Assembly (NCBI GenBank): GCA_905479415.1
Contig: CAJQMK010000042.1
Location: 1 to 39,200 of the forward strand
Source: an uncultured Flavobacteriaceae bacterium
GTDB lineage: Bacteria > Bacteroidota > Bacteroidia > Flavobacteriales > Flavobacteriaceae
Direction: 5' to 3'
DNA: 39,200 nucleotides
Shown piece after piece: positions 22,255-37,820 of this stretch. The notes beneath the pieces are model-generated. The model did no database searches. It was given only the letters and a program-made list of their open reading frames with translations, and was not told the origin of the DNA. The position numbers were made by a program, and so were the translations under genes. How positions within the stretch are numbered: position 1 is the first letter of the stretch; the number at the start of each line of letters is the position of its first letter.

Positions 22255-23040
22255 ATGAATTTTAGAAATATTATTTTATTAATTTTTCTATCAATTGTTA
22301 GTTGTAATCAAAGTAAATCAGATTGGGAAAATTTAATTATTGATAACTCTTTTGACGGTTGGCATATTTTTCAGGATGAGGGAAATAAAAGTGGCTGGTC
22401 AGTTGAAAATGATGTATTTATCTTTGATGCTAAAATGAGTTCAGAAAATATGCTCATTTCAGATGCTAGCTTAATATCAGACAAAAAATATTTGAACTTT
22501 GAAATTAAATTTGACTGGAAAATTGAGAAAGGTGGAAATAGTGGTTTCATGTGGGGAGTCAACGAAGAGATGAAATATAAATTTCCTTATCAAACAGGAC
22601 CTGAAATTCAAATTATAGATACTGAAACTTATCTCAGCCCTGAAACCATACAAGGTGGTGAAATAGAAATAAACAACATTTTAAATGATATTGGAAAAAA
22701 TAAAAATTTTTTAGGAGCTGTTTATGGAATATCTCCGCCTAGTAAATTAAATATTTCTAACCCAGCAGGAGAATGGAACTCTTATCACATTAAAATTGAC
22801 CACAGAAATAATAAAGGAAAAGTTAAGCTAAATAATATTCTAATTAATGAGTTTCCTTTAAGTGGTAAAACTTGGGATTCATTAGTAAATCAAAGCAAAT
22901 TTAGTAAGTCTGAAGACTATGAATACTTAGGTGATGAAAGATGGTACGGTTTTGCAAAAAATAAATACGGTCACATCTGTCTTCAAGACCATCCGGGAAA
23001 AGCTTATTTTAAAAATATTCAAATAAGAGAATGTGATTAA
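22255..23040 (+). CDS. DUF1080 lipoprotein (3-keto-disaccharide hydrolase family)
   Basis: A 261-residue lipoprotein with lipobox ending at Cys17 (SIVSC). The LamG-like DUF1080 fold shows as SFDGWHIF, then KFDWKIEKGGNSGFMWGVNE, then PAGEWNSYHIKIDHRN and the final GHICLQDHPGKAYFKNIQIR. The Pfam family is now named 3-keto-disaccharide hydrolase: members cleave glycosides that an oxidoreductase has first oxidised at C3. Three Gfo/Idh/MocA oxidoreductases are encoded within 10 kb, and a second DUF1080 gene lies at 35080. The seven-base gap to the SGNH gene suggests the same operon. The substrate is unknown. Confidence 0.87.
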   Translation: MNFRNIILLIFLSIVSCNQSKSDWENLIIDNSFDGWHIFQDEGNKSGWSVENDVFIFDAKMSSENMLISDASLISDKKYLNFEIKFDWKIEKGGNSGFMWGVNEEMKYKFPYQTGPEIQIIDTETYLSPETIQGGEIEINNILNDIGKNKNFLGAVYGISPPSKLNISNPAGEWNSYHIKIDHRNNKGKVKLNNILINEFPLSGKTWDSLVNQSKFSKSEDYEYLGDERWYGFAKNKYGHICLQDHPGKAYFKNIQIRECD

Positions 23041-23081: not shown

Positions 23082-25391
23082 ATGAATAAAAATATCCGCA
23101 ATAATCTTCTTTTTTTTCTAGTGCCTTTAGTTGGGATATTAATTTTTAAGTTCATATCAACACAACCATCTATTAAAGAAATTTCAATCGATAATAGTAC
23201 TATTCAAAACAGTGTAGATAACACAACTAATACAAATTATAAAGAGGTTAATTTTAATTTTGACGTTAAACCGATATTATCCGATAAATGCTACACCTGT
23301 CATGGACCCGACGATAAAGCAAGAAAAGCTAATCTAAGACTTGATATTGAGGAAGGATTTTATTCAGCATTAGAAGAAAATCCAAATCATTTTGTAATAG
23401 ATAAGAACAATCCTAATAAAAGCGAAATTTTAAAAAGAATTGATAGCGAAGAAGCTAAATATGTTATGCCTCCTCCGGAATCTAATTTAAAATTAACTGA
23501 AAAAGAAAAAGAAATTTTAAAAAGCTGGGTTGCTCAGGGAGGTAAATGGGAACCTCATTGGGCATATACTAAACCAGAATTACCAGATTTACCTGAAATA
23601 AACATTGAAAATTGGGCATCAAATGAAATAGATTATTTTATAGCCAATAAATTAGAATCTAAAGGAATGTCACCTTCAGAAATTGAAGAAAAAGAAATAT
23701 TAATAAGAAGAGCTTATTTTGATCTGACTGGTCTTCCTCCTAGTTTAGAAAATATTGACGATTTTATTTCTGATTCAAGCAATAATGCATATGAACGTGT
23801 AATAGATAATTTATTAGAATCTAAAGCTTACGGTGAAAGAATGGCTGCTATATGGATGGATTTATCTAGATACGGAGATAGCCATGGCTATCAAGATGAT
23901 CAAGAACGAATCATGTGGCCGTGGAGAGATTGGGTTATTCACGCCTACAATTCAAATATGCCATATGATAAATTTATAACATGGCAAATGGCTGGAGACA
24001 TGCTACCAAACGCCACTAAAGAACAAATATTAGCTTCTGGATTTAACAGAAATCATAAGATAACTCAGGAAGGTGGAGTGGTACCTGAGGAATATAGAGT
24101 TGAATATGTTGCAGATAGAACTGTAACATCTGCTAAAATAATGATGGGGTTAACGGTTGAATGTGCTAGATGTCATACTCACAAATATGATCCAATTTCA
24201 CACGATGAATTTTTTAGTCTTTATAGTTTTTTTAATAATGTTGATGAGAATGGTTTGATTGTTTATGGAGATACTGCCCCAAAACCAAATTTAACTATAG
24301 ACGCTAATGATATTAAAAGTGATTTACCTTTTGTAAACCTACCAGACAGCATCAGTGATGTAACTCTGATGGTAATGAAAGAAACTGAAAATTTAAGAAA
24401 TACATATGTTTTAAACCGCGGAAGTTATGACTCACCAACAAGGCTTGTAAAGCCAGGTACACCTGAAACGGTATTAAAATTTGATGAACAAAAATATTCT
24501 TCAGACAGAATAGGATTATCAAAATGGTTTTTTGATAAAGACAATCCTTTAACATCACGAGTTACAGTTAACAGGTTGTGGCAACAATTTTTTGGAATTG
24601 GTATAGTAGCGACACCTGATGATTTTGGAAGTCAGGGAAATAAACCCTTTAACCCCGAATTATTAGATTGGTTAGCGCATACATTTCAAAATAAAGACAA
24701 TTGGGATACTAAAAAATTTATTAAAAGAATAGTAATGTCTTCTACTTACAGACAGTCAAGTAAAATTAAAAAAGAGAATCGCTTAATGGATTCTGACAAT
24801 ACATATCTAGCTAACTATCCAAGACAAAAACTTTCCGCTGAGATGATAAGAGACAATGCCCTTTCAACAAGTGGAATGCTAGTTGAAAAAATTGGCGGTC
24901 CTAGTGTTAAGCCAATGCAACCTCCAAATCTTTGGAATGAAGTTACTGGTGGTGGAGGCGGAAGTCTGGCTTTCTATGTTCCAGATACAGGCGATAATTT
25001 GTTTAGAAGAAGTTTATATACTTTTTGGAAAAGAACAGTCCCTCCTCCTTCAATGATGATATTTGATGCACCAACTCGAGATTTTTGCGCCCCTGTTCGT
25101 CAAAAAACTAGTACTCCTCTTCAATCATTAGCATTAATGAACGACCCGCAGTATCAACTGGCTGCAGAGAATTTATCTAAATCGATTTTTAAAGAAGAAA
25201 TTTCAATTGATAAAAAAATTATAAAACTATACCGAACTGTAACGGGTAGAACACCAATTGAAAAAGAATTAATCAAATTAAAAGAATTTTTAAATGAAGT
25301 CCAAAATTTGAATGATATTGAGGAACAAAAAGCTTTCAACTCATTAACCGTATTAGTTTATAATTTGGATGAAACCACTCAAAAAAGTTAA
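23082..25391 (+). CDS. Cytochrome c/DUF1549/DUF1553 (PSD1) protein
   Basis: A 769-residue exported protein of the type first described in Planctomycetes. An N-terminal hydrophobic anchor (residues 9-26) is followed by a planctomycete-type cytochrome c domain with heme motif CYTCH at 70-74 in PILSDKCYTCHGPDDKARKA, then DUF1549 (about 155-380) with a second CxxCH, CARCH at 361-365, then DUF1553 (about 490-750) including TSRVTVNRLWQQFFGIGIV and RQSSKIKKEN. It is paired with the DUF1501 gene two bases downstream, as is usual for the family. Function is unknown; heme binding suggests electron transfer outside the inner membrane, perhaps from the oxidoreductases encoded nearby. Confidence 0.9.
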   Translation: MNKNIRNNLLFFLVPLVGILIFKFISTQPSIKEISIDNSTIQNSVDNTTNTNYKEVNFNFDVKPILSDKCYTCHGPDDKARKANLRLDIEEGFYSALEENPNHFVIDKNNPNKSEILKRIDSEEAKYVMPPPESNLKLTEKEKEILKSWVAQGGKWEPHWAYTKPELPDLPEINIENWASNEIDYFIANKLESKGMSPSEIEEKEILIRRAYFDLTGLPPSLENIDDFISDSSNNAYERVIDNLLESKAYGERMAAIWMDLSRYGDSHGYQDDQERIMWPWRDWVIHAYNSNMPYDKFITWQMAGDMLPNATKEQILASGFNRNHKITQEGGVVPEEYRVEYVADRTVTSAKIMMGLTVECARCHTHKYDPISHDEFFSLYSFFNNVDENGLIVYGDTAPKPNLTIDANDIKSDLPFVNLPDSISDVTLMVMKETENLRNTYVLNRGSYDSPTRLVKPGTPETVLKFDEQKYSSDRIGLSKWFFDKDNPLTSRVTVNRLWQQFFGIGIVATPDDFGSQGNKPFNPELLDWLAHTFQNKDNWDTKKFIKRIVMSSTYRQSSKIKKENRLMDSDNTYLANYPRQKLSAEMIRDNALSTSGMLVEKIGGPSVKPMQPPNLWNEVTGGGGGSLAFYVPDTGDNLFRRSLYTFWKRTVPPPSMMIFDAPTRDFCAPVRQKTSTPLQSLALMNDPQYQLAAENLSKSIFKEEISIDKKIIKLYRTVTGRTPIEKELIKLKEFLNEVQNLNDIEEQKAFNSLTVLVYNLDETTQKS

Positions 25392-25393
25392 AA

Positions 25394-26857
25394 ATGGAAG
25401 AAATACATAAACACTTTTTAAATAATAACAGAAGAAATTTTTTAAAAAAAGCTGGTTTAGGCATTGGTGGTTTAGCGCTTGGATCTATGCTAGACCCTTT
25501 TGGTACAGATAACAATATCGATCCCTTTTCTTCCTTAAAAAATGATTTAAATCTTCCGCATTTTGCCCCAAAAGCTAAAAGAATTATTTATTTATTTCAA
25601 AGTGGTGGACCCTCGCAATTAGATCTTTTTGACTACAAGCCTAAACTAAATCAGTTGAGAGGGAGTGATTTACCAAAATCTGTTAGAGATGGGCAAAGAC
25701 TTACAGGAATGACATCAGGTCAAAATAATTTTCCTCTAGTTGGAAGTAATTACAACTTCAAACAATATGGTGAATCTAGAGCATGGGTTAGTGAATTAAT
25801 GCCGTATGTTGGGAAAATTGCAGATGAATTATGTTTTGTAAAATCAATGCATACTGAGGCAATTAATCATGATCCTGCGATTACTTTTTTTCAAACTGGA
25901 TCACAACAACCAGGAAGACCAAGTATGGGCTCGTGGATGAGCTATGGTCTTGGAAGTTTAAATAATAATATGCCTTCGTTTGTAGTTTTACTTTCAAATG
26001 GAACAGGAAGACCTAAAGGACAACCCTTATACTCAAGACTTTGGGGAAATGGATTTTTAAGTTCACTACATCAAGGGGTGCAGTTTAGATCAGCAAAAGA
26101 TCCTGTTTTATATTTAAAAAATCCTGATGGGGTAACTGCACAAGAAAGAAGAAAAATGCTTGACTACTTAGCGGAACTCAATCACCAACAAGAAGCTTCA
26201 TTTGGAGATCCTGAAATTAGCAGTAGAATAGCTCAATATGAAATGGCTTACAGAATGCAAACCTCAGTTCCCGAAACAATGGACATCTCAGATGAACCTG
26301 ACCATATTCTTCAAATGTACGGGCCTGATGCTCAAAAGCCAGGTACGTATGCAGCTAATTGTATCCAGGCTAGAAGATTAATTGAAAAAGACGTTAGGTT
26401 TGTTCAGCTTTATCATATGGGTTGGGATCAGCATGAAAATCTTCCTAATCAAATTAAAGGCCAATCAAGTGATGTTGATCAACCAACAGCTGCTCTTATT
26501 ATGGATTTAAAACAAAGAGGATTATTGGAGGACACATTAGTAGTTTGGGGAGGAGAATTTGGAAGAACTAACTATTGTCAAGGTACTTTATCAGATACCA
26601 ATTACGGAAGAGATCATCATCCGAGATCATTTACTATTTTTATGGCAGGAGCGGGAATTAAACCTGGATTTAGCTATGGAGAGACTGATGATTTAGGTTA
26701 TAATATTGTAAAAGATCCTGTTCATGTTCATGACTTACAGGCAACAATATTAAATCAATTTGGTGTAGATCACACGAAAATGATATACAAACATCAAGGC
26801 AGAAGGTTTAGATTAACGGACGTTTCAGGAAACGTAATTAAAGACTTACTTGCGTAA
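25394..26857 (+). CDS. DUF1501 protein with Tat signal
   Basis: A 487-residue protein of the DUF1501 family, related to the alkaline phosphatase/sulfatase fold. The N terminus NNRRNFLKKAGLGIGGLALG is a twin-arginine signal, meaning export in the folded state. Family marks are RIIYLFQSGGPSQLDLFDYK, FVKSMHTEAINHDPA, and VVWGGEFGRT with GRDHHPRSF. It forms a fixed pair with the cytochrome/DUF1549/DUF1553 protein. The molecular function of DUF1501 is not established. The stop codon directly abuts the stop of the convergent esterase gene. Confidence 0.9.
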   Translation: MEEIHKHFLNNNRRNFLKKAGLGIGGLALGSMLDPFGTDNNIDPFSSLKNDLNLPHFAPKAKRIIYLFQSGGPSQLDLFDYKPKLNQLRGSDLPKSVRDGQRLTGMTSGQNNFPLVGSNYNFKQYGESRAWVSELMPYVGKIADELCFVKSMHTEAINHDPAITFFQTGSQQPGRPSMGSWMSYGLGSLNNNMPSFVVLLSNGTGRPKGQPLYSRLWGNGFLSSLHQGVQFRSAKDPVLYLKNPDGVTAQERRKMLDYLAELNHQQEASFGDPEISSRIAQYEMAYRMQTSVPETMDISDEPDHILQMYGPDAQKPGTYAANCIQARRLIEKDVRFVQLYHMGWDQHENLPNQIKGQSSDVDQPTAALIMDLKQRGLLEDTLVVWGGEFGRTNYCQGTLSDTNYGRDHHPRSFTIFMAGAGIKPGFSYGETDDLGYNIVKDPVHVHDLQATILNQFGVDHTKMIYKHQGRRFRLTDVSGNVIKDLLA

Positions 26858-27763
26858 TTATTTTAAATGTTGTTTGAAAAATTTCCAAATTTCATCACTT
26901 GCATTAATATCATTATTTCCAAAGGCTCCAGGCCAATCGTGTCCCCCACCATCAACTCGATAAAACCAAACCTCATTGTTATAACTTCCTCCCTTTTTCT
27001 TAGTCAAAGAAACAGTTGAGTAATCTGATTTATCAATATCTGGAAAATTAAAAACTTCATCTTGAACACACGCATTCAAATCAGACCAAAACTCCATTAC
27101 TTCCAGAATATGAGGAGCGCCTCCCCAACCGTAAGCAGTATTCATTGTTCCATCCCATGGAACAGTGGTGTCAGAAGTGCCTGACATTTGTAAAACAGGA
27201 ATTTTATAAGCAGGTGAGCAATTATTCCAATCTGATCCACTCATTGTTCCAGTGATTGATGCTACAGCCTTAAAAACATCCGACTTTTCACATCCTAAAG
27301 TATAGGACATAAATCCACCATTAGACATTCCTGCTGTAAACACATTGTCAATACTAGATTTAAATTCTTCTCTAATTTTAATTGCTAAAAAAGATAAAAA
27401 ATCAATATCATTTACAGTACTCATTTGCAAATTAGCGTTCCAATGAGCCTGACCGGTTGCTAACATTGATCCTTGTGGGTAGCAAATCATGAATCCGTTT
27501 TGATCTGCCACATCATTCATTTTTGAATATGCTAAAATATTGTTCATATTACTTCCAAATCCGTGAAGCATGAACAAGAGCGGGGAATTTTCAGTATAAC
27601 TTTTTGGTTTATAAATAATGTATCTCCTATTAATTCCACCATAGTTAATAGAAAATTCTTTTTGCGTCCAAGCAGGCTGAGCTATTGGTTCTAATTCATC
27701 GTCTTGATTACTGCAACCAAATAAAACAAATACAAAAAAACATAAATATATATATCTATGCAT
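26858..27763 (-). CDS. CE1/PHB-depolymerase-type esterase lipoprotein
   Basis: A 301-residue lipoprotein (lipobox ends at Cys17, VLFGC) of the LpqC/polyhydroxybutyrate depolymerase-like esterase family, which includes feruloyl and acetylxylan esterases of CE1. The oxyanion stretch is FMLHGFGSNMNN, the nucleophile elbow AGMSNGG has Ser147, and SGTSDTTVPWDG and GGGHDWPG hold the likely Asp and His. It is the last gene of a five-gene minus-strand operon, one base after an oxidoreductase gene. Action on esterified glycan side chains is the likely role. Confidence 0.87.
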   Translation of the reverse strand: MHRYIYLCFFVFVLFGCSNQDDELEPIAQPAWTQKEFSINYGGINRRYIIYKPKSYTENSPLLFMLHGFGSNMNNILAYSKMNDVADQNGFMICYPQGSMLATGQAHWNANLQMSTVNDIDFLSFLAIKIREEFKSSIDNVFTAGMSNGGFMSYTLGCEKSDVFKAVASITGTMSGSDWNNCSPAYKIPVLQMSGTSDTTVPWDGTMNTAYGWGGAPHILEVMEFWSDLNACVQDEVFNFPDIDKSDYSTVSLTKKKGGSYNNEVWFYRVDGGGHDWPGAFGNNDINASDEIWKFFKQHLK

Positions 27764-27764
27764 A

Positions 27765-29081
27765 TTAAATTACTTTAGTTTCACCAGGCTTTGGAATGGT
27801 ATATCTACCATTACTATCAGGAAGTGTTGGTGGATTAGAATTCCAGCTTAAATCATTAGGAACAAGAACTTGTTGAGAATTTAATGCCTGTTCCCATGTT
27901 ATTTCTTTTCCTGTGTAGGTTGCCATTCTACCCATAATAGCAGTTAAAGTTGATTTTGCACCATATTCTGCATTATTAATTACACCTCCAGATCTAATAG
28001 ATTCAAATAATCTATCATGTTCGATTTGGTATGGACTTTTATCATTTGAGGGATCATGCTTAAACACATCATTACCATTATGATCAATAATTTTACAATA
28101 ATCACCAGATGTAACTAAATTGGCTTTCGTTCCCTGAAATGCTTCGCTTACGTCATATTTTGTTCCTGGTTGATGACGACATTGACTAGAAACTATTGCT
28201 CCACTTGGATATTTAAATTCAACAAAATGATGATCAAATATTTCTCCATGATCGATTCCTTTTCTTACTTCTCTTCCTCCCATTCCACTAGCAGATTTTG
28301 GATATTCGCCTATAAACCAATTAGCAACATCAATATTATGAATATGTTGTTCTAGTATATGATCTCCGCATAGCCAATTAAAATAATACCAATTTCTCAT
28401 CTGATATTCCATTTCTGTTTGACCTTTTACTCTTTTTCTTACCCAAACTCCAGCACTGTTCCAATAAACTTGACCAGAAACAATTTTTCCAATATCACCA
28501 TTATTAATAAGTTTAAGAGTTGAATTATAACTGTTTTGATACCTTCTTTGAAGACCAACCACTACGTTTAATTTTTTTTTCTTTGCAATTTTTGCAGATT
28601 CAAGAACTTGTCTAACTCCATTAGCATCTGTTGCAACAGGTTTTTCCATAAAAACATGTTTATCATTGTCAATTGCATATTTAAAATGAAGTGGTCTAAA
28701 ACCAGGGGGTGTAGCCAAGATTACTACATCTGCCATATCGATAACTTTTTGATATGAGTTAAATCCTACATGTCTGTTTTTTTCTTTCACTTTCACACTT
28801 CTTTCACCATTAAGTTCCTCTGAAATAGCTTTTAAACTTGATTCTAATCTGTCTTCAAAAGCATCAGCCATTGCTACTAATTCAACATCCTTATCAGCTC
28901 TAAGAGCTTGAACTGCAGCTCCAGTTCCTCTACCACCACAACCAACTAAGGCAAGTTTTAATTTTTTATTATTAGAACTATTTGCCATAGCCTCTAACGA
29001 AAATGTTGAAGACAATAATACACCACCAGTTAAAGCGGTAGACTTAACGAAAGATCTTCTAGAAAATTGTTTTTTACTCAT
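27765..29081 (-). CDS. Gfo/Idh/MocA oxidoreductase with Tat signal (EKP type)
   Basis: A 438-residue NAD(P)-dependent sugar oxidoreductase. The N terminus FSRRSFVKSTALTGGVLLSS is a twin-arginine signal. The Rossmann motif is LALVGCGGRGTG at 43-54 and the classical EKP motif, with the catalytic Lys147, is at 146-148. Family members oxidise or reduce ring hydroxyls of sugars with a tightly bound cofactor, which allows work in the periplasm. It differs from the other two copies in this window, which carry CQKP. It follows the isomerase gene by seven bases in the operon. A role in making 3-keto sugars for DUF1080 is inferred. Confidence 0.9.
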   Translation of the reverse strand: MSKKQFSRRSFVKSTALTGGVLLSSTFSLEAMANSSNNKKLKLALVGCGGRGTGAAVQALRADKDVELVAMADAFEDRLESSLKAISEELNGERSVKVKEKNRHVGFNSYQKVIDMADVVILATPPGFRPLHFKYAIDNDKHVFMEKPVATDANGVRQVLESAKIAKKKKLNVVVGLQRRYQNSYNSTLKLINNGDIGKIVSGQVYWNSAGVWVRKRVKGQTEMEYQMRNWYYFNWLCGDHILEQHIHNIDVANWFIGEYPKSASGMGGREVRKGIDHGEIFDHHFVEFKYPSGAIVSSQCRHQPGTKYDVSEAFQGTKANLVTSGDYCKIIDHNGNDVFKHDPSNDKSPYQIEHDRLFESIRSGGVINNAEYGAKSTLTAIMGRMATYTGKEITWEQALNSQQVLVPNDLSWNSNPPTLPDSNGRYTIPKPGETKVI

Positions 29082-29088
29082 TGTTGAT

Positions 29089-30003
29089 TTATTTAAAGTT
29101 ATCTACTTTTTTATATGAATTTATAAGTTTTAATTCTCCCTCTAATCCTTTAAGAGAATTACCGTGCTCCATGCCTAACACTCCATTAAATCCTTTGTCA
29201 TAAATATATTTAAAAATATTTTTATAATTTATCTCACCAGTTGTTGGCTCATTTCTTCCAGGGTTATCTCCAATCTGAAAGTAGGCTATTTCATTCCAAG
29301 ATGCTTCAATGTTTGGAATTAAATTACCTTCTTGTATTTGTTGATGATAAATATCAAAAAGGATTTTACAAGATTTTGAATTTACTGCCTTACAAATTTG
29401 AAAAGCTTGAGGACTTTCTGTTAAAAACAAACCAGGATGATCTCTAAAATTCAAAGGTTCTAAAACCATTGTTAAGTCGTGTTTTTCTAAAATTTCAGAG
29501 GCTTGTTTTAAAGTTTCTATAACATTTTGAGTTTGATAATTCATGTCTTTTCTTAAATCCAGATGTCCAGGAACTACAGTCATCCATTTTGCATTTACTC
29601 TTTTCGCAACTTCAACAGAGGTTGAAATATCATTTAAAAATTCACTTCGTTTGTTTAAGTCACCACTTGCTAGATTGGGTTCATTCCAATATATTTTATG
29701 AGCAACAAAAACACCCATTTTTATATTATAATTCGATAAAAAGTTTCCAATTTTTTCTTGAGTTTTAGCATCTCTATTTTTCATTCCATTATCCTCAAAT
29801 GCTTTAAATCCTTGATCTTTAATAAATTCTAATTGATTAAAAATATCTGATCCAGCATGGTTTTTAAACATTCCAAAATGTGGAGCGTAATTTAAATTAT
29901 AAACATGATTTGGGTTAGAATTATTATTAGAAAATAGTGGGTTGACTGCCATTAAACTAGCAGCTGTAAGGGTTGAATTTTGTATAAAATTTCTTCTTTT
30001 CAT
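29089..30003 (-). CDS. Hydroxypyruvate isomerase-like TIM-barrel protein, exported
   Basis: A 304-residue xylose-isomerase-like TIM barrel. The mature part matches hydroxypyruvate isomerase: VLEPLN with metal ligand Glu182, LFDIYHQQI with Asp217 and His220, QIGDNPGRNEPTTGEINY at 243-260, and a final metal Glu280 in GMEHG. The family signature here is GDxPGRxEPGTGEINY with Thr for the second Gly. The N terminus MKRRNFIQNSTLTAASLMAV looks like a twin-arginine signal, unusual for a cytoplasmic-type isomerase. Lying between two exported oxidoreductase-pathway genes, it may isomerise or epimerise a keto sugar rather than hydroxypyruvate. Confidence 0.85.
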   Translation of the reverse strand: MKRRNFIQNSTLTAASLMAVNPLFSNNNSNPNHVYNLNYAPHFGMFKNHAGSDIFNQLEFIKDQGFKAFEDNGMKNRDAKTQEKIGNFLSNYNIKMGVFVAHKIYWNEPNLASGDLNKRSEFLNDISTSVEVAKRVNAKWMTVVPGHLDLRKDMNYQTQNVIETLKQASEILEKHDLTMVLEPLNFRDHPGLFLTESPQAFQICKAVNSKSCKILFDIYHQQIQEGNLIPNIEASWNEIAYFQIGDNPGRNEPTTGEINYKNIFKYIYDKGFNGVLGMEHGNSLKGLEGELKLINSYKKVDNFK

Positions 30004-30012
30004 AATGTTATA

Positions 30013-30978
30013 TTAATTATTCCAGTATTCGTTTTGTTCTTCAATAGTTGGTGTTATGTACGGTCTTACGACTCTGAATCCAACAAACTGTGCGTCAGTA
30101 TGCCACCATTTACTTCTTGGAATTTGAGGATCTTGTTTTTTCCATTGTTTTGAAGATGCTTGTCTAGACGCACTTCTTAACCTGTAATAAGAACTTTTCC
30201 ATGAACCTCCCCTCACTACTCTTGGATATAATTTTATTGGCTTAACGATTGGGTTTTTACTTATACTTTGTGATGCTTTTAAATACGTTGTAGTATTGTA
30301 CGCGTCTAAAGTCCACTCAGAAACATTTCCATGCATGTCATGTAATCCCCAATTATTTGGTAGCTTTTGACCAACTTTATGATATTTATTACTACTATTA
30401 TCTTTAAACCATGCGTATTTATTTAATTCTTTAGGATCATCTCCAAATGAATAAGCTTCTTCAGATCCTGCTCGACAGGCATATTCCCATTCAGCTTCAG
30501 TTGGTAGTCTATAGAAGTTTCCTGTAATTGCCGAAAGCCACTGACAGAATTTTTTAGCAGCCAATTGAGTCATTGATATTGCGGGAAATCCATCTGTACC
30601 CATTCCAAAACTCATTTCTACGTATGGTGTTGTTGCACCTGAAACTGCATCAATATCGATATTTACTTCGTTTTTAGAATTAAATGCTGGCTGAAGTTCA
30701 TCCAAATTACGACTCATAAATAAATTATATAAATCCCAAGTTGTTTCATATTTAGCCATCCAAAACGAATCTACTTGTACCTTATGAACAGGACCTTCAT
30801 CGGCTAATCTGTTTTTTTCATTTAATGGGCTACCCATTAAAAATTGACCGCCAACAATAGGACTCAACTCAAGACCATAGTTAGTGTTTAAAATATATTG
30901 ATTGTATTCATTAAATTTTTCTTGGCTTAAAGAAAAGCTAAAAGAAAAACAAACTAAAATATAAATCAATTTCATCAC
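30013..30978 (-). CDS. SUMF1-fold protein lacking FGE cysteines
   Basis: A 321-residue exported protein (signal peptide to about residue 18) with the formylglycine-generating-enzyme fold: VGGQFLMGSPLNEKNRLADE at the start, KYETTWDLYNLFM, RLPTEAEWEYACRAG and VVRGGSW near the end. The segment that holds the two catalytic cysteines in true FGE reads RGGSWKSSYYRLRSASR here, with no cysteine, so it should not activate sulfatases. Related proteins bind ligands, modify proteins or act as iron-dependent oxidases such as EgtB-like enzymes. It lies between two pathway genes (gaps 33 and 9 bases), so it probably has a structural or catalytic part in the same process. Confidence 0.85.
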   Translation of the reverse strand: MMKLIYILVCFSFSFSLSQEKFNEYNQYILNTNYGLELSPIVGGQFLMGSPLNEKNRLADEGPVHKVQVDSFWMAKYETTWDLYNLFMSRNLDELQPAFNSKNEVNIDIDAVSGATTPYVEMSFGMGTDGFPAISMTQLAAKKFCQWLSAITGNFYRLPTEAEWEYACRAGSEEAYSFGDDPKELNKYAWFKDNSSNKYHKVGQKLPNNWGLHDMHGNVSEWTLDAYNTTTYLKASQSISKNPIVKPIKLYPRVVRGGSWKSSYYRLRSASRQASSKQWKKQDPQIPRSKWWHTDAQFVGFRVVRPYITPTIEEQNEYWNN

Positions 30979-31011
30979 CTTAAAGTAATGAAAAAAAGAA
31001 AGTCTTACAAT

Positions 31012-32358
31012 TTAAAATTCTCTGTATGGACTATCAAGGAATTTATTTGCCTCTTCTTCTTTAAATTTGGCTAGTTTATTATCCCAATGTAAAGTTTTAC
31101 CGGGGAATCTTCCGGCTATTACACCCAATAAAATTGTTTCAGTTAAACGTGCAGAATATGAAAAAGGAGCAGTACAATTATCTTTTCCAAGACAAGCGTC
31201 AACAAATTGGTGATAATGTAAATATGACTCACCTCCATAATCTCTAACTGGTTGATTTGTTATTTTTCCAGAACTTTCTAATTCAGCAAGATCTAATTCC
31301 ACATATTTTCCATCAACAATTAATTTAGGTAATTCCATAAAGTGCGGAAGTAATAATCTTCCTTTTTCTCCAACAAACATAGCGCCTTGCAAAGGCAGTT
31401 TATCTTTGTTCGGTAATTTTAAATCTTTATTATTTTTTGGTGCTCCAGAACCGTCTTGCCATATCCATTTTAGTTTTTCTGAAGTATATTTTGTTCCAGG
31501 AAATTCATATGTTACTTGGTTATGTTCAGGGAAACCAAATCCATTTGGCTTTCTACACTTATTTTTTATTGTTAATGGCACGTCAAGTTCAAGGGCGTTG
31601 TAGGGAGTATCAAAAATATGAACGCCCATATCTCCAAGTGTTCCACATCCATAATCTACAATTTTTCTCCAATTACCAGGATGATAAATTTTGTCTTTAT
31701 AGTCTCTGTATGACGCTGTACCTAGCCAAAGATTCCAGTCTAAATTATCGGGAATTGAATCAGATCCGTTTGGTACTGGGCCATCATATCCCCAATTTTT
31801 TGGAGACCAGGCTCTAACTGTACTGACTTTACCAATAATTCCAGATTGAATCAATAAAGTAGCTAATTTATAATCATAAAAAGAATGTACCTGAATACCC
31901 ATTTGGGTTATTAGGTTTTTATCTTTTGCCATTTTTCGCATTGCTCTAGCTTCACTTACATGATGAGTTAATGGTTTCTGACAATAAACAGATTTATTTA
32001 GTTCCATTGCCATCATCGATACAGGAGCATGTGTATGGTCTGGTGTAGAGACCATAACAGCATCAATCAAATCACTTATTTCAGAAAACATAATTCTATA
32101 ATCCTTATAGACTTTAGCTTTTGGATGTAGCTTACTAGCTGCTTCCAAAGCATTTGAATCTACGTCACAAAGCGCTACAACTTCCACAGATTTGTGTGAG
32201 GACATGTCTTTTAAATCTGCTGCTCCCATTCCGCCAACTCCTACATGAGCTAATCTCAAAATTTGATTATTATTTGATGCCCAAATTGATGTTGGCAATA
32301 CACTCAATGACGCCAAAGCAGCTGATGATTTAATAAAATTTCTTCTGTTATTTTTCAT
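31012..32358 (-). CDS. Gfo/Idh/MocA oxidoreductase with Tat signal (CQKP type)
   Basis: A 448-residue exported sugar oxidoreductase that heads the five-gene minus-strand operon. The twin-arginine signal is NNRRNFIKSSAALASLSVL. Rossmann motif: LAHVGVGGMGAADL at 36-49. The usual EKP is CQKP at 126-129, keeping the catalytic Lys, and STPDHTH at 104-110 is typical of this large Bacteroidota/Planctomycetes subgroup. A C-terminal SYLHYHQFVDACLGKDN and SARLTETILLGVIAGRFPGK are shared with the copy at 32532-33893. It presumably oxidises a glycoside at a ring hydroxyl in the periplasm; the electron acceptor is unknown. Confidence 0.9.
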   Translation of the reverse strand: MKNNRRNFIKSSAALASLSVLPTSIWASNNNQILRLAHVGVGGMGAADLKDMSSHKSVEVVALCDVDSNALEAASKLHPKAKVYKDYRIMFSEISDLIDAVMVSTPDHTHAPVSMMAMELNKSVYCQKPLTHHVSEARAMRKMAKDKNLITQMGIQVHSFYDYKLATLLIQSGIIGKVSTVRAWSPKNWGYDGPVPNGSDSIPDNLDWNLWLGTASYRDYKDKIYHPGNWRKIVDYGCGTLGDMGVHIFDTPYNALELDVPLTIKNKCRKPNGFGFPEHNQVTYEFPGTKYTSEKLKWIWQDGSGAPKNNKDLKLPNKDKLPLQGAMFVGEKGRLLLPHFMELPKLIVDGKYVELDLAELESSGKITNQPVRDYGGESYLHYHQFVDACLGKDNCTAPFSYSARLTETILLGVIAGRFPGKTLHWDNKLAKFKEEEANKFLDSPYREF

Positions 32359-32531: not shown

Positions 32532-33893
32532 ATGATTAAAAAAGATAATTCCAGAAGAGGGTTTTTAAAAAAATCAATTATTATTCCACCACTGTTTATA
32601 GTACCAAGACATGTTCTTGGTGGTAAAGGATATATATCTCCTAGTGATAAACTTAATATAGCTGCCGTTGGAGTAAGAAAATGGGGAATGGGATCTAACA
32701 ACCTACATCAATGTAGAAATGAAAACATAGTAGCTTTGTGTGATGTTGATTTTAATCATTCTAAACCAACTTTTGATAAATATCCTAAAGCTAAAGTCTA
32801 TAAAGATTACAGAGTGATGCTAGATAAGCAAAAGGATATAGACGCTGTTATTGTTGCAACACCAGACCATAATCATGCTGTTATTACAATGAAAGCTATT
32901 AAAATGAGTAAACATGTTTATTGTCAAAAACCATTAACTCATACAGTTTACGAAGCTCGAGAAATCACAAAAGCTGCAAAAAAATATAATGTCCAAACAC
33001 AAATGGGTAATCAAGGAAGGTCCTCTGATGAGATTAGAAAACTCAAAGAATGGATTGATGACGATGCAATCGGTCCAGTTAGAGAATTGTATGCTTGGAC
33101 GGATAGACCTATCGGGGGAAATGCTTGGGATACTTTTGCAGTTAAGGCAAAATCTAAAGAAAAACCTCCAATTCCTGAAGGTTTAGATTGGGATTTATGG
33201 TTAGGACCTGCTCAGTATAGAGACTATCATCCAGATTATCATCCGCTTTCTTGGAGAGCTTGGATTGATTTTGGAACAGGTTCAATGGGAGACATGGGTT
33301 GCCACATTTTAGACCCTGCTTTTTATGCTCTGGAACTAGGCGCTCCTAGTGAAATTCAGGCAACATCAACTCATTATATTCCAGAAATCGAGTCTCAAAC
33401 CTATCCTTCAGCTTCTATTGTAAGAATGAAATTCCCAAAAAGAGGTAAACATCCAGAATTAAATCTAACCTGGTCAGATGGAAGAATTCAACCTTCAATT
33501 CCTGACGAATTTAAGAGCGGAGAACAATTCACTTTAAGTGGAGCAATGTTTGTCGGAGATCAAGGGAAAATAACTCACGACTCTCACGGAGCTAGTGGTG
33601 TTAAAATTATTCCCGAAGAAAAAATGTTAAACTACAAACAACCCTCTCCATATATAAAAAGAGTAGATACTACCCATGAAGGAGATTGGATTAGAGCCTG
33701 TAAAGATGGAATACCTGCAAGTTCATCTTTTGACTATGGAGGTCCTTTAACAGAAATGGCATTACTTGGTATGATTGCAATTCGCTTAAAAAATCAGAAA
33801 CTTGAATGGAATTCTAAAGAATTTAAATTTAAAAATAATGAACAAGCAAATGCATTACTACATAAAACTTATAGAAAAGGGTGGAGCTTGTAA
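32532..33893 (+). CDS. Gfo/Idh/MocA oxidoreductase with Tat-like signal (CQKP type)
   Basis: A 453-residue paralogue of the product at 31012-32358, transcribed divergently from it. A twin-arginine-like signal NSRRGFLKKSIIIPPLFIV is present. The Rossmann segment is LNIAAVGVRKWGMGSNNL, with the usual GxGxxG altered to GVRKWG. ATPDHNH is at 109-115 and CQKP at 131-134. The C terminus (YGGPLTEMALLGMIAIRLKN) matches the paralogue. The altered glycine loop may change cofactor binding. Likely another oxidation step on a glycoside or a related substrate. Confidence 0.9.
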   Translation: MIKKDNSRRGFLKKSIIIPPLFIVPRHVLGGKGYISPSDKLNIAAVGVRKWGMGSNNLHQCRNENIVALCDVDFNHSKPTFDKYPKAKVYKDYRVMLDKQKDIDAVIVATPDHNHAVITMKAIKMSKHVYCQKPLTHTVYEAREITKAAKKYNVQTQMGNQGRSSDEIRKLKEWIDDDAIGPVRELYAWTDRPIGGNAWDTFAVKAKSKEKPPIPEGLDWDLWLGPAQYRDYHPDYHPLSWRAWIDFGTGSMGDMGCHILDPAFYALELGAPSEIQATSTHYIPEIESQTYPSASIVRMKFPKRGKHPELNLTWSDGRIQPSIPDEFKSGEQFTLSGAMFVGDQGKITHDSHGASGVKIIPEEKMLNYKQPSPYIKRVDTTHEGDWIRACKDGIPASSSFDYGGPLTEMALLGMIAIRLKNQKLEWNSKEFKFKNNEQANALLHKTYRKGWSL

Positions 33894-33951: not shown

Positions 33952-35079
33952 TTGTTTAAATTAAAAATATTATTCTTTTTTATATATCTAGTTTCCTGTA
34001 CCAAGGAACCTGTACTGTACCAAGTTGATTTTGTAACTCAGCCGGTTAATGGAGGTTCTATTAATTTAAATTCAAATAATTATAATGAAGGTGAGATTTT
34101 AAAGCTCGAAGCTATTCCGTCTGAGAATTACAGTTTTGATTTCTGGTCTGGGGATCTCAACAGTAATAATTCTTTAATTGATTTAGTTGTTGATTCTGAT
34201 AAAACTGTATTTGCTAATTTTTCCAAAAAAAGATTTGAAGTAAATATAACCATTGAAGGTCAAGGGAAAGTCTCTAAAAGATTAATTAAAAGCGGTTCAA
34301 AAAACGATTATAGCTACGGAAGTATTTTAGAAATTTTAGCTTCTCCAGATAATGGATGGACTTTTGTTAAATGGCAAGGAGATATTGAAAATAATACCAC
34401 AAATCCTGTTCATATTAATATTGACGGTCAAAAAAATATTACTGCAATATTTAAAAAAAATTACATTGGAAAAAATACTTCTAAATTTTTAGCTCTTGGT
34501 GATAGTTACACAATCGGCCAATCGGTAGAGGTCAATCAAAGATGGCCTGTACAATTTTTAAAAGAGTTAAAATCCAGTACAAACGCTATAGATACACTTC
34601 AAATTATAGCTCAAACTGGATGGAGAGTTGATCAGTTAAAAGAAGCCATGAATAATTCTGATCTTCAACCACCTTACGGACTTGTTTCACTATTAATTGG
34701 AGTTAACAATCAATTTCAGGGTCAAGATGCTGTTGGATTCAGACCTGAATTTATTGAAATACTAGAAAAATCTTTAAAACTTGTTGAAAACAGAACAGAA
34801 AGATTATTTGTAATTTCTATTCCAGATTGGGGATCGAGCCCATATGGTGCTTCATTAAACAGAGAAAAAATTTCTAAAGAAATTGATGATTTTAATTCAG
34901 TTTTAAAGGAAGAGTCAGAAAAAAGAGGAATTAGATATTTTAATATAACAACAATTTCAAGAAGAGCTCTTACTGATAATTCATTAATCGCAAGTGACAG
35001 ATTACATCCAAGTGGAAAGATGTATAAACTATGGGTAGATAAAATGATCCCTGTTATATCTAAAGTTAATTTTGATTAG
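33952..35079 (+). CDS. SGNH hydrolase lipoprotein with two InlB-type repeats
   Basis: A 375-residue lipoprotein (lipobox ends at Cys16, YLVSC). Residues about 22-92 and 95-170 are two Listeria-Bacteroides (InlB B) repeats, recognisable by the repeated PxNGGSI/EGEILKLEAIP pattern and the FWSGD/KWQGD motifs followed by FANF/TAIFKK. An SGNH esterase domain follows: LGDSYTIG with Ser185, LIGVNNQFQG, and SDRLHPSG with the catalytic Asp and His. The start is a TTG; an in-frame stop lies five codons upstream and no ATG or GTG precedes the signal peptide. The repeats probably bind glycan or cell wall. It starts 58 bases after the oxidoreductase gene. Confidence 0.85.
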   Translation: MFKLKILFFFIYLVSCTKEPVLYQVDFVTQPVNGGSINLNSNNYNEGEILKLEAIPSENYSFDFWSGDLNSNNSLIDLVVDSDKTVFANFSKKRFEVNITIEGQGKVSKRLIKSGSKNDYSYGSILEILASPDNGWTFVKWQGDIENNTTNPVHINIDGQKNITAIFKKNYIGKNTSKFLALGDSYTIGQSVEVNQRWPVQFLKELKSSTNAIDTLQIIAQTGWRVDQLKEAMNNSDLQPPYGLVSLLIGVNNQFQGQDAVGFRPEFIEILEKSLKLVENRTERLFVISIPDWGSSPYGASLNREKISKEIDDFNSVLKEESEKRGIRYFNITTISRRALTDNSLIASDRLHPSGKMYKLWVDKMIPVISKVNFD

Positions 35080-35787
35080 TTAAAGTTTTCTAATTTTTAT
35101 ATTTCTAAACCAAATTGGACTGTCGTGATCCTGTAAAGCTATATATCCTTTTTTAAATTTTCCATAATCAGGATAATCATCCCATTTTCCAGAATCTCTT
35201 TTTAAATACCATTCTTTTGAATAGGGTACAAATTCCAATAACAATTTTCCATTTAACCAATGTTGAACTTTTTTTTCTGTATATAATATTTTAGATGAAT
35301 TCCATTGACCCGCTGGATTTAATTGTTTTTTGCTTAAATCAGCTTCATGCATTGCATAATTAGCTCCAGCTTTTTGCCATTCTTCAAGTTTAGCATTGTT
35401 TATCTCTTCCCAACCAATGTCATCAAGCAATTGATATTCAGGGGAAATCGCATATGGAGCTTGAAAACCTTCTTGAACGTTATAAAAAACTCCACTATTT
35501 CCTCCTTTTGGAAGTTTCCACTCAAGGTATAATTCAAAGTATTCGAATTCTTCCTTATAATATATTATATCTCCTCCTCCTATCCACTCATCTTCTAATT
35601 TAAGATCAGTATCAAATGTTAATTCTCCATCAATAGCGGCCCATTTTTCAGGTATTTCTTTTCCGTTATAAGCTCTCCATCCATCAGTTGACTTCCCATC
35701 AAATAAATCAATCCATTCTGATTCGTTTTTTTCACAAGAAATAGTGAAAAACAATAGTACAATTAAAATACATTTTAAATTTTTCAT
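35080..35787 (-). CDS. DUF1080 lipoprotein (3-keto-disaccharide hydrolase family), second copy
   Basis: A 235-residue lipoprotein (lipobox ends at Cys18, FTISC) with the DUF1080 pattern: DLFDGKSTDGWRAYNGKEIP, LEWKLPKGGNSGVFYNVQEG, LNPAGQWNSSKILYTEKKVQ and GYIALQDHDSPIWFRNIKIR. It is more like the typical family form than the copy at 22255, which has a long insert. It starts two bases after the GH20 gene, so it is cotranscribed with a hexosaminidase. The stop codon abuts that of the SGNH gene on the other strand. Cleavage of an oxidised disaccharide or glycoside is inferred from the family name. Confidence 0.9.
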   Translation of the reverse strand: MKNLKCILIVLLFFTISCEKNESEWIDLFDGKSTDGWRAYNGKEIPEKWAAIDGELTFDTDLKLEDEWIGGGDIIYYKEEFEYFELYLEWKLPKGGNSGVFYNVQEGFQAPYAISPEYQLLDDIGWEEINNAKLEEWQKAGANYAMHEADLSKKQLNPAGQWNSSKILYTEKKVQHWLNGKLLLEFVPYSKEWYLKRDSGKWDDYPDYGKFKKGYIALQDHDSPIWFRNIKIRKL

Positions 35788-35789
35788 GA

Positions 35790-37820
35790 TCAGATTTTAT
35801 ATGTTTCTTTTATTTTTTTTATTAGCATTATTTCAGATAAAAACTGCCAATCAAAGTTTTTTGTTTGATTAGCAGGATGATGATGATGATCCTGGTCTAA
35901 TATATAGTCGTCCGGTTTATTTAAGATTCTAGTCTTAGAATAGATTTTTTCAAACTTTTCTTTTGTAATATTAAACTCACTTTCAAGATTTTTTATATGT
36001 TTTAAATCACCATCAAAATCAACTTTTTCTAATTTCAATATAGCATTAGACGAAAACTTGGTAAGCTCATTAACCTGGTTGTAAATCTCTAATAAATACA
36101 AGTTTTTAGATTCACTTTGTATAAGATTATTAATAATAGTTTCTACTTTGAGTGAAATTTCTAGGGATCTTTTAGCATTATTAATTCTAACTTCATGTTT
36201 TTTAGACCATTCTCCTTTTTTATCTAAGTTCGGCAGGTCAATAATGTCAGACTCTAATGGGTTTTGTTTTTTAGAAAGTCCAGGTCTCCATCCGTTTTCT
36301 GAAAGCAGCATATTAAGCCACATACCCACTGGCTTTTCTAATGAATCTATAAAGGCAAAACTATCCTCTCCAAATTGAGATCCAAAATTTTTAATTCTAA
36401 ATAATTTTTTAAATTCTTTAATAGGCAAACTATTGCCAGACCAGCTGTATTGTGCAAAAGCAGCAATTCCTCTTTTGTAAAGCTCAAAATGAGGAGAATC
36501 ATCGTCCCACAAGGTCAGTAATAGACCATCTAATTTTTTATCAATAGAACTAGAAGCGAAAGATTTTATTTGAGAAATATTACTTTGGTTTTGTGGCATT
36601 AGTGTCCATCTAGTCTGGCCAGCTGTAGCTCCCATTACAATTAATTCATTTTTTGAATACCAATCCATGGCTTTTAAATTACCATAAGTATCAGATTTTT
36701 GGTAATTCCATCTCATGTAAACTGCATTTTTTGGAAATTTTTCAATAAAATTCATCAAGTTAATTTCGTTTTTCTCCCAAATTTCGTCAACCTCTTTTAC
36801 AGAAATTTTATCATTAAACATTGGATTATATACTCCAGCGTGTTTAAGTGGCATGTCATCCCAAAAAATTGGAATTCTTCCATGTTTTTCAGCAAACTCA
36901 CATACTTTATTAAGCCATATTAAATTTAACTCTAATTCAGTCTTATTATCTCTTTCAACCAAGTGAACTTCATCCCCTCCAATATGTAAATATTTTCCAT
37001 ACGGGGTAGCTTTAATTGCATCTAGATAGAGATCAAATTGTAGTTCGTATGTTTCTGGATTTAATGGATTAAAAGCCCAATCACTTTCTGGTTTATCTCT
37101 TAAATGAATATTCTTTTCATGCTTTAAAATAAACGAAGCATGTCCTAAACCTTGAACAAGAGGATTTATTATAATATTTCTAGATTTGGCATAATCACTT
37201 AACTCAATCCACCACTCAATAGAAAAAGAATCTGAAGAACCTACTTCCGGTCTTGAAACGTATTTAAGTTTATCTTCAAGTTCAACTATAATTCCATTGA
37301 TTTTTAAATTGGCCAGATGATCAATTAAATCAAAATAATAAGATTGTTTTTCAGTGTGATGCTTTAGATCTAAGTGAATAGGTCTAAAATCTAAAGAAGG
37401 CTGATCTTTAATATTTAAAATAGGAACGGATGTTTTCTGAGCAAATGCATTTTCTAATATTTGATTTAGTGTTACAAAAGCGTAAAATAAACCTTCTTGA
37501 TCCTTGGCTGTGATTAATATATTTTCCTTTTCAATATTTAAAATATAACCCTCACTTTTTAGATCAATACTGTCATCTATTTCAAATTTTATTGTTGAAC
37601 TTTCAGAGTCACCCTCAGAAATATTTTTTAAAAATCCATATGTAATCGGAATTTTATCATTTTTAGTTGAATAAGCATACTCAACTTTTTGAGCGTTTAT
37701 ATTTGAAAACTCTTGATGTTTAGATGAAACATCAATAGTCGGAATGATATTTAAATAATTATCAGAGCTGATGTTGGAATTACAAGAAACAATAAATATT
37801 AGTAATATTAAAAACCTCAT
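35790..37820 (-). CDS. GH20 beta-N-acetylhexosaminidase lipoprotein
   Basis: A 676-residue glycoside hydrolase of family 20. It starts with a lipobox (FIVSC, Cys13), an N-terminal GH20b-like domain (to about residue 145), then the TIM barrel. The catalytic pair is Asp283-Glu284 in HIGGDEV at 279-285. GH20 enzymes remove terminal GlcNAc or GalNAc by substrate-assisted catalysis. The C-terminal quarter is helical and holds a four-His run at 645-648. It would supply amino sugars for the NagB fusion encoded at 8877-10781. A promoter with the right spacing lies directly upstream. Confidence 0.9.
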   Translation of the reverse strand: MRFLILLIFIVSCNSNISSDNYLNIIPTIDVSSKHQEFSNINAQKVEYAYSTKNDKIPITYGFLKNISEGDSESSTIKFEIDDSIDLKSEGYILNIEKENILITAKDQEGLFYAFVTLNQILENAFAQKTSVPILNIKDQPSLDFRPIHLDLKHHTEKQSYYFDLIDHLANLKINGIIVELEDKLKYVSRPEVGSSDSFSIEWWIELSDYAKSRNIIINPLVQGLGHASFILKHEKNIHLRDKPESDWAFNPLNPETYELQFDLYLDAIKATPYGKYLHIGGDEVHLVERDNKTELELNLIWLNKVCEFAEKHGRIPIFWDDMPLKHAGVYNPMFNDKISVKEVDEIWEKNEINLMNFIEKFPKNAVYMRWNYQKSDTYGNLKAMDWYSKNELIVMGATAGQTRWTLMPQNQSNISQIKSFASSSIDKKLDGLLLTLWDDDSPHFELYKRGIAAFAQYSWSGNSLPIKEFKKLFRIKNFGSQFGEDSFAFIDSLEKPVGMWLNMLLSENGWRPGLSKKQNPLESDIIDLPNLDKKGEWSKKHEVRINNAKRSLEISLKVETIINNLIQSESKNLYLLEIYNQVNELTKFSSNAILKLEKVDFDGDLKHIKNLESEFNITKEKFEKIYSKTRILNKPDDYILDQDHHHHPANQTKNFDWQFLSEIMLIKKIKETYKI

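Follow-up and report, generated by a model that had tools for sequence, protein, structure and literature searches.

The window analysed here, a stretch of 39,200 nucleotides from an uncultured Flavobacteriaceae bacterium (contig CAJQMK010000042.1 of assembly GCA_905479415.1, which amounts to 1.34 Mb in 81 contigs and is 81% complete), contains five minus-strand genes in the order GFO1-SUMF-TIM-GFO2-esterase, with intergenic gaps of 33, 9, 7 and 1 bases; coordinates, strand and gaps were all found to be exact on recheck (Table 1). GFO1 and GFO2 are Gfo/Idh dehydrogenases, TIM is a barrel protein of the AP_endonuc_2 type and SUMF has the fold of the formylglycine-generating enzyme (FGE, or SUMF1). 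The main result is that SUMF, while adopting the FGE fold, is not an FGE and is firmly tied to GFO2, of which it is a near-obligate and probably secreted partner. The explanation that we favor, at about even odds (roughly 0.5), is that the operon represents a variant of the 3-keto-glycoside route of sugar breakdown, operating in the extracytoplasmic space, in which SUMF would serve GFO2 as a secreted binding or partner subunit.

The first line of evidence is the distribution of the genes. The initial annotation had suggested searching for the same operon in other genomes, and in these SUMF is kept with its partners; no body of otherwise conserved copies lacking it was found. Within the genus of the window SUMF occurs in 16 of 21 relatives, exactly the same 16 that hold TIM and GFO2, the five relatives without it being 51–82% complete and one of these (G004) having a contig break inside GFO1. 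The gene order is identical in the 14 uncut copies, two more being cut by a contig end. The near relatives are metagenome-assembled genomes of Flavobacteriaceae/Flavobacteriales, apparently marine (L056–L058).

The same association holds in a set of 395 Bacteroidota genomes, in which SUMF was accepted at E ≤ 1e-60 and a strict GFO2 at E < 1e-130, the scoring of GFO2 and TIM being confined to the top 4 or 5 candidates in each genome. SUMF is found in 50 of these genomes, strict GFO2 in 52 and both in 48, so that strict GFO2 accompanies SUMF in 48/50 genomes as compared with 4/345 genomes without SUMF (Fisher p 2e-54, a figure that ignores shared ancestry and is descriptive). The strict limit was set after a gap in the E-values had been seen, and at 1e-100 the counts become 49/50 and 12/345. 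TIM is present in 45 of the 50 SUMF genomes vs 22 of the 345 others, and two TIM carriers (G023 and G032) yielded neither SUMF at E ≤ 1e-20 nor GFO2. Strict GFO2 lies within 600 bases of SUMF on the same strand in 43 of 53 SUMF loci, and SUMF is found within 6 kb of 25 of the 27 GFO2-TIM neighbour pairs. Four genomes (G310, G236, G122 and G215) considered as cases of GFO2 without SUMF were rejected as such, each having a diverged SUMF with the characteristic DPQxPxSxWW loop, adjacent to GFO2 in the first three and separated from it by ~13 kb of the same contig in G215; some form of SUMF is held by all 52 strict-GFO2 genomes. Conversely, the SUMF genomes without strict GFO2 are G228 and G401, the latter having a 41%-identical relative of GFO2 beside SUMF.

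The association also extends across phyla. Genome contigs were scanned with a genus-level profile and the motifs [KR][QR]DPQIP[RK]S or GL[YHF]DMHGN, and the best 80 of at least 582 candidate loci were examined: by record title, 39 are from Bacteroidota, 26 from Planctomycetota, 12 from Verrucomicrobiota and 2 from Rhodothermota, with 1 unplaced; six end within 1 kb. For GC-rich loci the assignment of families relied on profiles run over every reading frame, and the labels SSF2, EST/S9 and SusD in the scanned loci are loose. In the 700 bases downstream of SUMF, the nearest surveyed gene on its strand is a Gfo/Idh dehydrogenase in 45 of the 80 loci (25 in Bacteroidota, 16 in Planctomycetota, 2 each in Verrucomicrobiota and Rhodothermota), TIM in 3 and a loose SSF match in 1. 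Since only 11 Gfo/Idh genes occur among the 606 genes located more than 3 kb from SUMF in the same loci, and the order is constant in the genus, the adjacency of SUMF and Gfo/Idh exceeds chance. All 45 downstream dehydrogenases are nearer to GFO2 than to GFO1 or GFO3, a third Gfo/Idh protein of the window. The tree distances of SUMF and GFO2 are correlated (r 0.44 for the 48 pairs remaining after short fragments were dropped; 0/2000 permutations as high), a value that includes shared species history.

The initial annotation had held that the five genes act as one unit. Within the genus the order is kept; the cross-phylum core is smaller, the old conserved unit being SUMF-GFO2, often with TIM, to which GFO1 and the esterase were added locally. 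The orders encountered vary (SUMF-TIM-GFO2, SUMF-GFO2-TIM, GFO2-SUMF, DUF1080-SUMF-GFO2-TIM); in Pedobacter sp. Hv1 (L083) and P. punctiformis (L094) SUMF immediately precedes GFO2. GFO1 adjoins DUF1080 in three other genera (L046, L050, L051) and is found beside SUMF only in the genus of the window, so that it probably joined SUMF later; the esterase joins the set in this genus and in the related locus L058. TIM adjoins a pair made of a GMC oxidoreductase and gluconate-dehydrogenase subunit 3 in the absence of SUMF in L044, L045, L048 and L052. SUMF had also been described as held between two sugar-oxidation genes; it does not border on both, its neighbours being GFO1 and TIM, with GFO2 after TIM. 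A 1367-residue frame at G192, considered as a SUMF fusion, was rejected because its translation is a read-through in GC-rich DNA. In a GC-rich genome, a frame beside GFO2 (L183:2607..3653, minus strand) reads like a putative flavin transferase of the ApbE type.

The second line of evidence concerns the nature of SUMF itself. PF03781 is the only Pfam domain found in its 321 residues, and the AlphaFold model (mean pLDDT 87.8), obtained as the initial annotation had proposed, bears out the FGE fold. The closest solved folds are PvdO, an FGE-like protein of pyoverdine maturation (Z 31.5, 240 residues, 2.8 Å), and, tied with it, TvpA, the Treponema denticola variable protein 1 (2y3c; Z 31.2, 229 residues, 2.1 Å, 27% identity); FGE structures come next, with Z about 27. 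With FGE, SUMF shares the motif scaffold LPTEAEWE, GNVxEW and RGGS; it differs in lacking the catalytic cysteines, in having the additional DPQxPxSxWW loop and in being linked to a dehydrogenase instead of a sulfatase. The earlier description of SUMF as cysteine-free is too strong, three cysteines being present (C10, within the leader, C145 and C168), and correct insofar as the FGE catalytic pair, which in FGE binds Cu, is missing. Indeed, RGGSFLCNDSYC of the true FGE of the window is aligned with RGGSWKSSYYR of SUMF, and column 262, which corresponds to the first FGE cysteine, holds no Cys in 113 SUMF rows but Asp in 78 and Ser in 12 of them, the residue being Ser or Asn in the genus of the window. 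Cysteine is likewise absent from columns 264 and 266 in all 113 rows, and some cysteine without fixed position occurs between residues 258 and 268 in 13 of them. C145 and C168 are cysteines in 91 and 98 of the 113 rows, respectively, and sit at the places of the disulfide cysteines of human FGE.

That the role of SUMF is not explained by sulfatase activation, as had been surmised, is upheld by the presence in the same window of both a true FGE and a Cys-type sulfatase, its expected client. SUMF also stays below the NCBIfam cut-offs of other members of the fold: its scores are 48 of 360 bits for egtB, 32.7 of 400 for ovoA and 33.2 of 420 for SenA, whose products carry an N-terminal DinB-type domain besides the FGE-type domain, 96.7 of 350 for GldK/PorK, 35.8 of 458.2 for GldJ and 93 of 500 for PvdO. 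Two other SUMF1-domain genes in the genome, with frames of 480 and 533 residues (contigs C77 and C35), resemble Gld proteins in length only.

What distinguishes SUMF from its structural relatives are two conserved segments. The family-specific C-terminal stretch has the form S275...W279...DPQxPxSxWW, in which D283, P284, P287 and S289 are invariant in 113/113 rows and Q285 and W291 in 112/113; in the second segment D110 is found in 109 and Y119 in 112 of the 113 rows. R272 is also invariant and E61 nearly so. None of the 26 PDB sequences listed by a profile search has its best match reaching past position 256 of 298, and the DPQxPxSxWW loop thus falls outside the matched solved structures. Both segments overlap blocks of low confidence in the model (residues 91–120 and 281–290), which suggests that they might form a site that becomes ordered upon binding of a partner or ligand. 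The loop is present in 79 of the 80 scanned loci and in 28/28 further loci; the former count is partly built in, because the scan motif includes the loop, and the further loci were picked by a profile itself containing it, so that only the four GFO2-first cases named above are free of this circularity. The row sets A2 and A3 leave out the short SUMF fragments L114 and L119; A2 also leaves out L021, the window itself (L001 and L136) and L019, which is the same place as L127, and represents the 16 genus copies by L002, L005, L017, L056 and L057. A hydrophobic N-terminal stretch was found in 57 of the 78 SUMFs scored, two of the 80 having been left out at a contig edge.

The properties of GFO2 and of the surrounding genes place SUMF in a plausible pathway. 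GFO2 has the Rossmann domain, the EKP lysine and the HxxD motif of the Gfo/Idh family, R8 and R9 (the twin-arginine pair), K147 (the EKP lysine), H248 and D251 being invariant in 46/46 rows, and the fold of its model is that of NAD-dependent glycoside hydrolases, levoglucosan dehydrogenase, DgpA and glucuronide-3-dehydrogenase (Z 32.9–36.0). As read from the translations, the leaders are twin-arginine-like in GFO1, TIM and GFO2, hydrophobic in SUMF and lipoprotein-like in the esterase, and all five products are therefore probably extracytoplasmic. An AP_endonuc_2 barrel is encoded in the operon and two DUF1080 proteins in the window. DUF1080 also recurs beside SUMF elsewhere: L037 and L109 show the run GMC oxidoreductase, gluconate-dehydrogenase subunit 3, DUF1080, SUMF, GFO2, TIM, and in L038 two DUF1080 genes flank SUMF, with a GFO2-like gene next. 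The DUF1080 family counts among its members, according to PMC9007349, the 3-ketotrehalose hydrolase BT2157 as well as a putative 3′-ketolactose hydrolase; PMC10628242 describes an Agrobacterium 3-keto-glucoside route made of a flavin dehydrogenase, a Gfo reductase and two isomerase-like proteins, namely a beta-eliminase and a putative hydratase. The DUF1080, GMC oxidoreductase and cytochrome neighbours, this Agrobacterium precedent, the GFO2 model and its intact residues make a role in 3-keto-glycoside metabolism the best reading, and families, leaders and neighbours together indicate that the operon is likely an extracytoplasmic 3-keto-glycoside module.

In such a module the two Tat-exported dehydrogenases would oxidise and then re-reduce a sugar hydroxyl, the nicotinamide traveling as a bound cofactor inside the folded enzyme, as families, leaders and neighbours would suggest; the TIM barrel, acting as eliminase, hydratase or isomerase, would work on the keto-sugar and the lipoprotein esterase would remove acyl groups. 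The two family-specific loops of SUMF would mediate its binding to the sugar, to GFO2 or to both, making it a substrate-handling subunit and not an independent oxidase. A binding or partner role is considered the most likely for SUMF, ahead of that of an oxidase and, in turn, of a non-redox enzyme.

Several observations weigh against this picture. The best NCBIfam match of GFO1 is BT_2158_fam with 310 bits, below the cut-off of 750, and GFO3 too scores below it, while the DUF1080 genes are near but outside the five-gene run. A clear hydrophobic leader is missing, by a crude test, in 21 of the 78 SUMFs. No surveyed family directly follows SUMF in 31 of the 80 loci, GFO2 does so in only 2 of the 12 Verrucomicrobiota loci, and five Planctomycetota partners (L070, L077, L079, L080, L084) are 32–36% identical to GFO2. 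SUMF and GFO2 are far apart in G022, in G191 and for one of the two SUMF copies of G031, so that a tight subunit is not forced. Finally, GFO2 adjoins a Cys-bearing FGE in two loci, L047, where a GHMP kinase is the next gene, and L049, where a sulfatase separates the two, for which reason part of the SUMF-GFO2 link could reflect a shared use of sulfated sugars.

The foremost alternative, which we consider unlikely, is that SUMF is an unrecognised FGE-fold oxidase like PvdO, acting on a sugar intermediate and passing electrons to oxygen or to neighbouring cytochromes. PvdO, named dihydropyoverdine dehydrogenase in NCBIfam, heads both the profile and the fold lists of SUMF, and in 12 of the 80 loci SUMF is immediately preceded by a cytochrome-type match labeled PSD1, eight of these upstream stretches having been searched with Pfam and all eight having PSCyt1, in two copies in six of them. 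In L058 a one-direction run SSF-S9-GDSL-PSD1-DUF1501-SUMF-TIM-GFO2-esterase-GFO is found in which DUF1501 touches SUMF (the last GFO is not GFO1, the identity being 23%); unlike in L058, PSD1-DUF1501 of the window is convergent with the operon. Against an oxidase speak the absence of cysteine from column 262, stray cysteines being found nearby in the 13 rows mentioned above, the lack of any strictly conserved histidine in the SUMF rows and the variability of column 262 (Asp/Ser/Asn), which together leave no obvious conserved redox site, as well as the tie of PvdO with TvpA, a ligand-binding protein belonging to a diversity-generating retroelement. Among the 29 of 34 listed open reading frames of the window that were scanned, the reverse transcriptase family was not found.

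A related and equally tentative idea is that SUMF and GFO2 together form a dedicated extracytoplasmic sugar oxidoreductase in which GFO2 would keep its nicotinamide captive and SUMF would complete the active site or relay electrons to the PSCyt1/PSD1 cytochromes; if so, such a two-part enzyme would put the FGE fold to a new use and would free Gfo/Idh chemistry, in a novel way, from the cytosolic nicotinamide pool. In Verrucomicrobia, PSCyt genes occur near sulfatases and a role in carbohydrate metabolism has been suggested (PMC5615132). With regard to these genes, it can be added that SUMF stands upstream of PSD1 and DUF1501 in Maribacter/Zobellia-type genomes (L039, L040, L095, L106, L127, L172), that in L040 a YceI-like protein and an M20 peptidase lie between PSD1 and DUF1501 and the position of SUMF, and that in G022, G031 and G191 the PSD1/DUF1501-linked SUMF stands away from GFO2.

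Still more doubtful is the possibility of a non-redox catalytic role in the pathway, in which SUMF would, for example, hydrate, epimerise or cleave the 3-keto-sugar in a step performed elsewhere by DUF1080 or by a second TIM barrel. The five-gene run does have a single TIM and no internal DUF1080, as against the two isomerase-like proteins and the Gfo reductase reported for Agrobacterium in PMC10628242, and the polar residues D283, S289 and R272, invariant, and D110 and E61, nearly so, also speak for it. However, DUF1080 genes lie close by in the window and beside SUMF in L037 and L109, and their joint occurrence means that SUMF is not a simple replacement of DUF1080; furthermore, we know of no FGE-fold hydratase or lyase, no search for one having been made.

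It seems improbable, too, that the linkage merely reflects common descent and the horizontal spread of the cluster, with SUMF and GFO2 functionally untied: the copies are homologous and the mirror-tree and Fisher figures are uncorrected for shared ancestry, but the surrounding gene order shifts while the members persist, and every strict-GFO2 genome carries a SUMF. A role of SUMF as an additional FGE devoid of the cysteines, or as a modulator of sulfatase maturation in the manner of SUMF2, is very improbable, for despite its fold, the 13 sulfatase matches (some partial) in the whole genome and the L049 arrangement of GFO2 beside FGE and sulfatase, the window has its true FGE, SUMF goes without the cysteines and with GFO2, and the sulfatase profile gave the nearest same-strand neighbour within 700 bases of SUMF in 0/80 loci.

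Returning to the preferred reading of SUMF as a secreted partner of GFO2, the operon resembles the BT2156-BT2160 and GlycDH/AtOGE pathways in its Gfo/Idh dehydrogenases, its AP_endonuc_2-type barrel and its DUF1080 neighbours, and differs from them in that no FGE-fold member is named for either in the accessible portions of the sources, where "FGE" occurs 0 times in PMC9007349 and "formylglycine" 0 times in PMC10646112. Unlike in Agrobacterium, where the first oxidation is due to a flavoprotein (PMC10628242), that of the operon is presumably carried out by a Gfo/Idh enzyme. No account of a SUMF1-type protein in such operons was found in searches of an open-access library, a weak negative, since subscription papers lie mostly outside it. 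From PvdO, SUMF is set apart not only by score but also by the DPQ loop, which lies outside the match, and by a different genomic setting. PorK/GldK, the ring lipoprotein of the type IX secretion system, is another Bacteroidota protein of FGE fold which, like SUMF, has a Cys-free aligned RGGSW stretch, its own motif being GGSWKD, and differs from it by the low equivalog score given above.

Proteins like SUMF match the FGE-sulfatase domain and are thus easily mistaken for sulfatase activators, whereas in Bacteroidota, Planctomycetota, Verrucomicrobiota and Rhodothermota one widespread subfamily goes with just one type of exported sugar dehydrogenase. Being inherited with that dehydrogenase in several phyla, SUMF probably belongs, so far unnoticed, to a sugar-oxidising pathway; it acquires a concrete partner and may add a component to the recently recognised oxidative route of glycan breakdown.

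Table 1. Location of the operon, of two stretches of SUMF and of other genes in the window
Feature	Position	Strand	Basis
GFO1, Gfo/Idh dehydrogenase, twin-arginine-like leader, BT_2158-like (glycoside 3-dehydrogenase-like)	31012..32358	-	Pfam GFO_IDH_MocA
SUMF, secreted FGE-fold protein without FGE catalytic cysteines, 321 aa	30013..30978	-	PF03781 148 bits
RGGSWKSSYYR, SUMF residues 256-266, place of FGE catalytic Cys pair, Cys-free	30181..30213	-	
DPQIPRSKWW, SUMF residues 283-292, family-specific conserved loop	30103..30132	-	
TIM, AP_endonuc_2 (hydroxypyruvate-isomerase-like) barrel, Tat-like N-terminus	29089..30003	-	PF01261 107 bits
GFO2, Gfo/Idh dehydrogenase, twin-arginine leader, conserved partner of SUMF	27765..29081	-	Pfam, PF01408 47 bits
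Esterase, lipoprotein-like, PHB-depolymerase type	26858..27763	-	PF10503 32.5 bits
True FGE, contains RGGSFLCNDSYC	17665..18675	-	PF03781 262 bits + sequence
Cys-type sulfatase (CAPARS), expected FGE client	13732..15264	-	PF00884 195 bits + sequence
DUF1501, convergent neighbour of operon	25394..26857	+	
PSCyt1-DUF1549-DUF1553 (PSD1) cytochrome-type protein, convergent neighbour	23082..25391	+	
DUF1080 (3-keto-disaccharide hydrolase family)	35080..35787	-	PF06439 164 bits
Second DUF1080	22255..23040	+	PF06439 108 bits
GFO3, divergent BT_2158-like Gfo/Idh	32532..33893	+	BT_2158_fam 498.6 bits vs cut-off 750

Concerning the remaining members of the operon, the solved sequences nearest to GFO1 are 8tdf and 8tdh, TIM aligns to 3ngf and scores 132 bits with TIGR03234 (cut-off 353), and the esterase scores 144.5 bits with the NCBIfam family e_dPHAscl_type1 (cut-off 150). 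A search for tRNA genes in the window found none, and a Bacteroidota-type promoter pattern gave 3 matches in the window vs 1.6 expected, none of them at the operon.

The sulfatase, FGE, GH20-like and amino-sugar genes of the window, along with the arrangement seen in L049, hint at sulfated glycans. A 634-residue fusion of a glucosamine-6-phosphate isomerase and a PIG-L de-N-acetylase domain (8877..10781, minus strand) is encoded near an SSF symporter, a GHMP kinase and a sulfatase, in what looks like a cluster for the use of sulfated amino sugars. The GH20-like protein (35790..37820, minus strand) has a clear domain 2 and a weak match to the catalytic domain (32.3 bits), and a GDSL esterase (33952..35079, plus strand) is preceded by two InlB B-type repeats.

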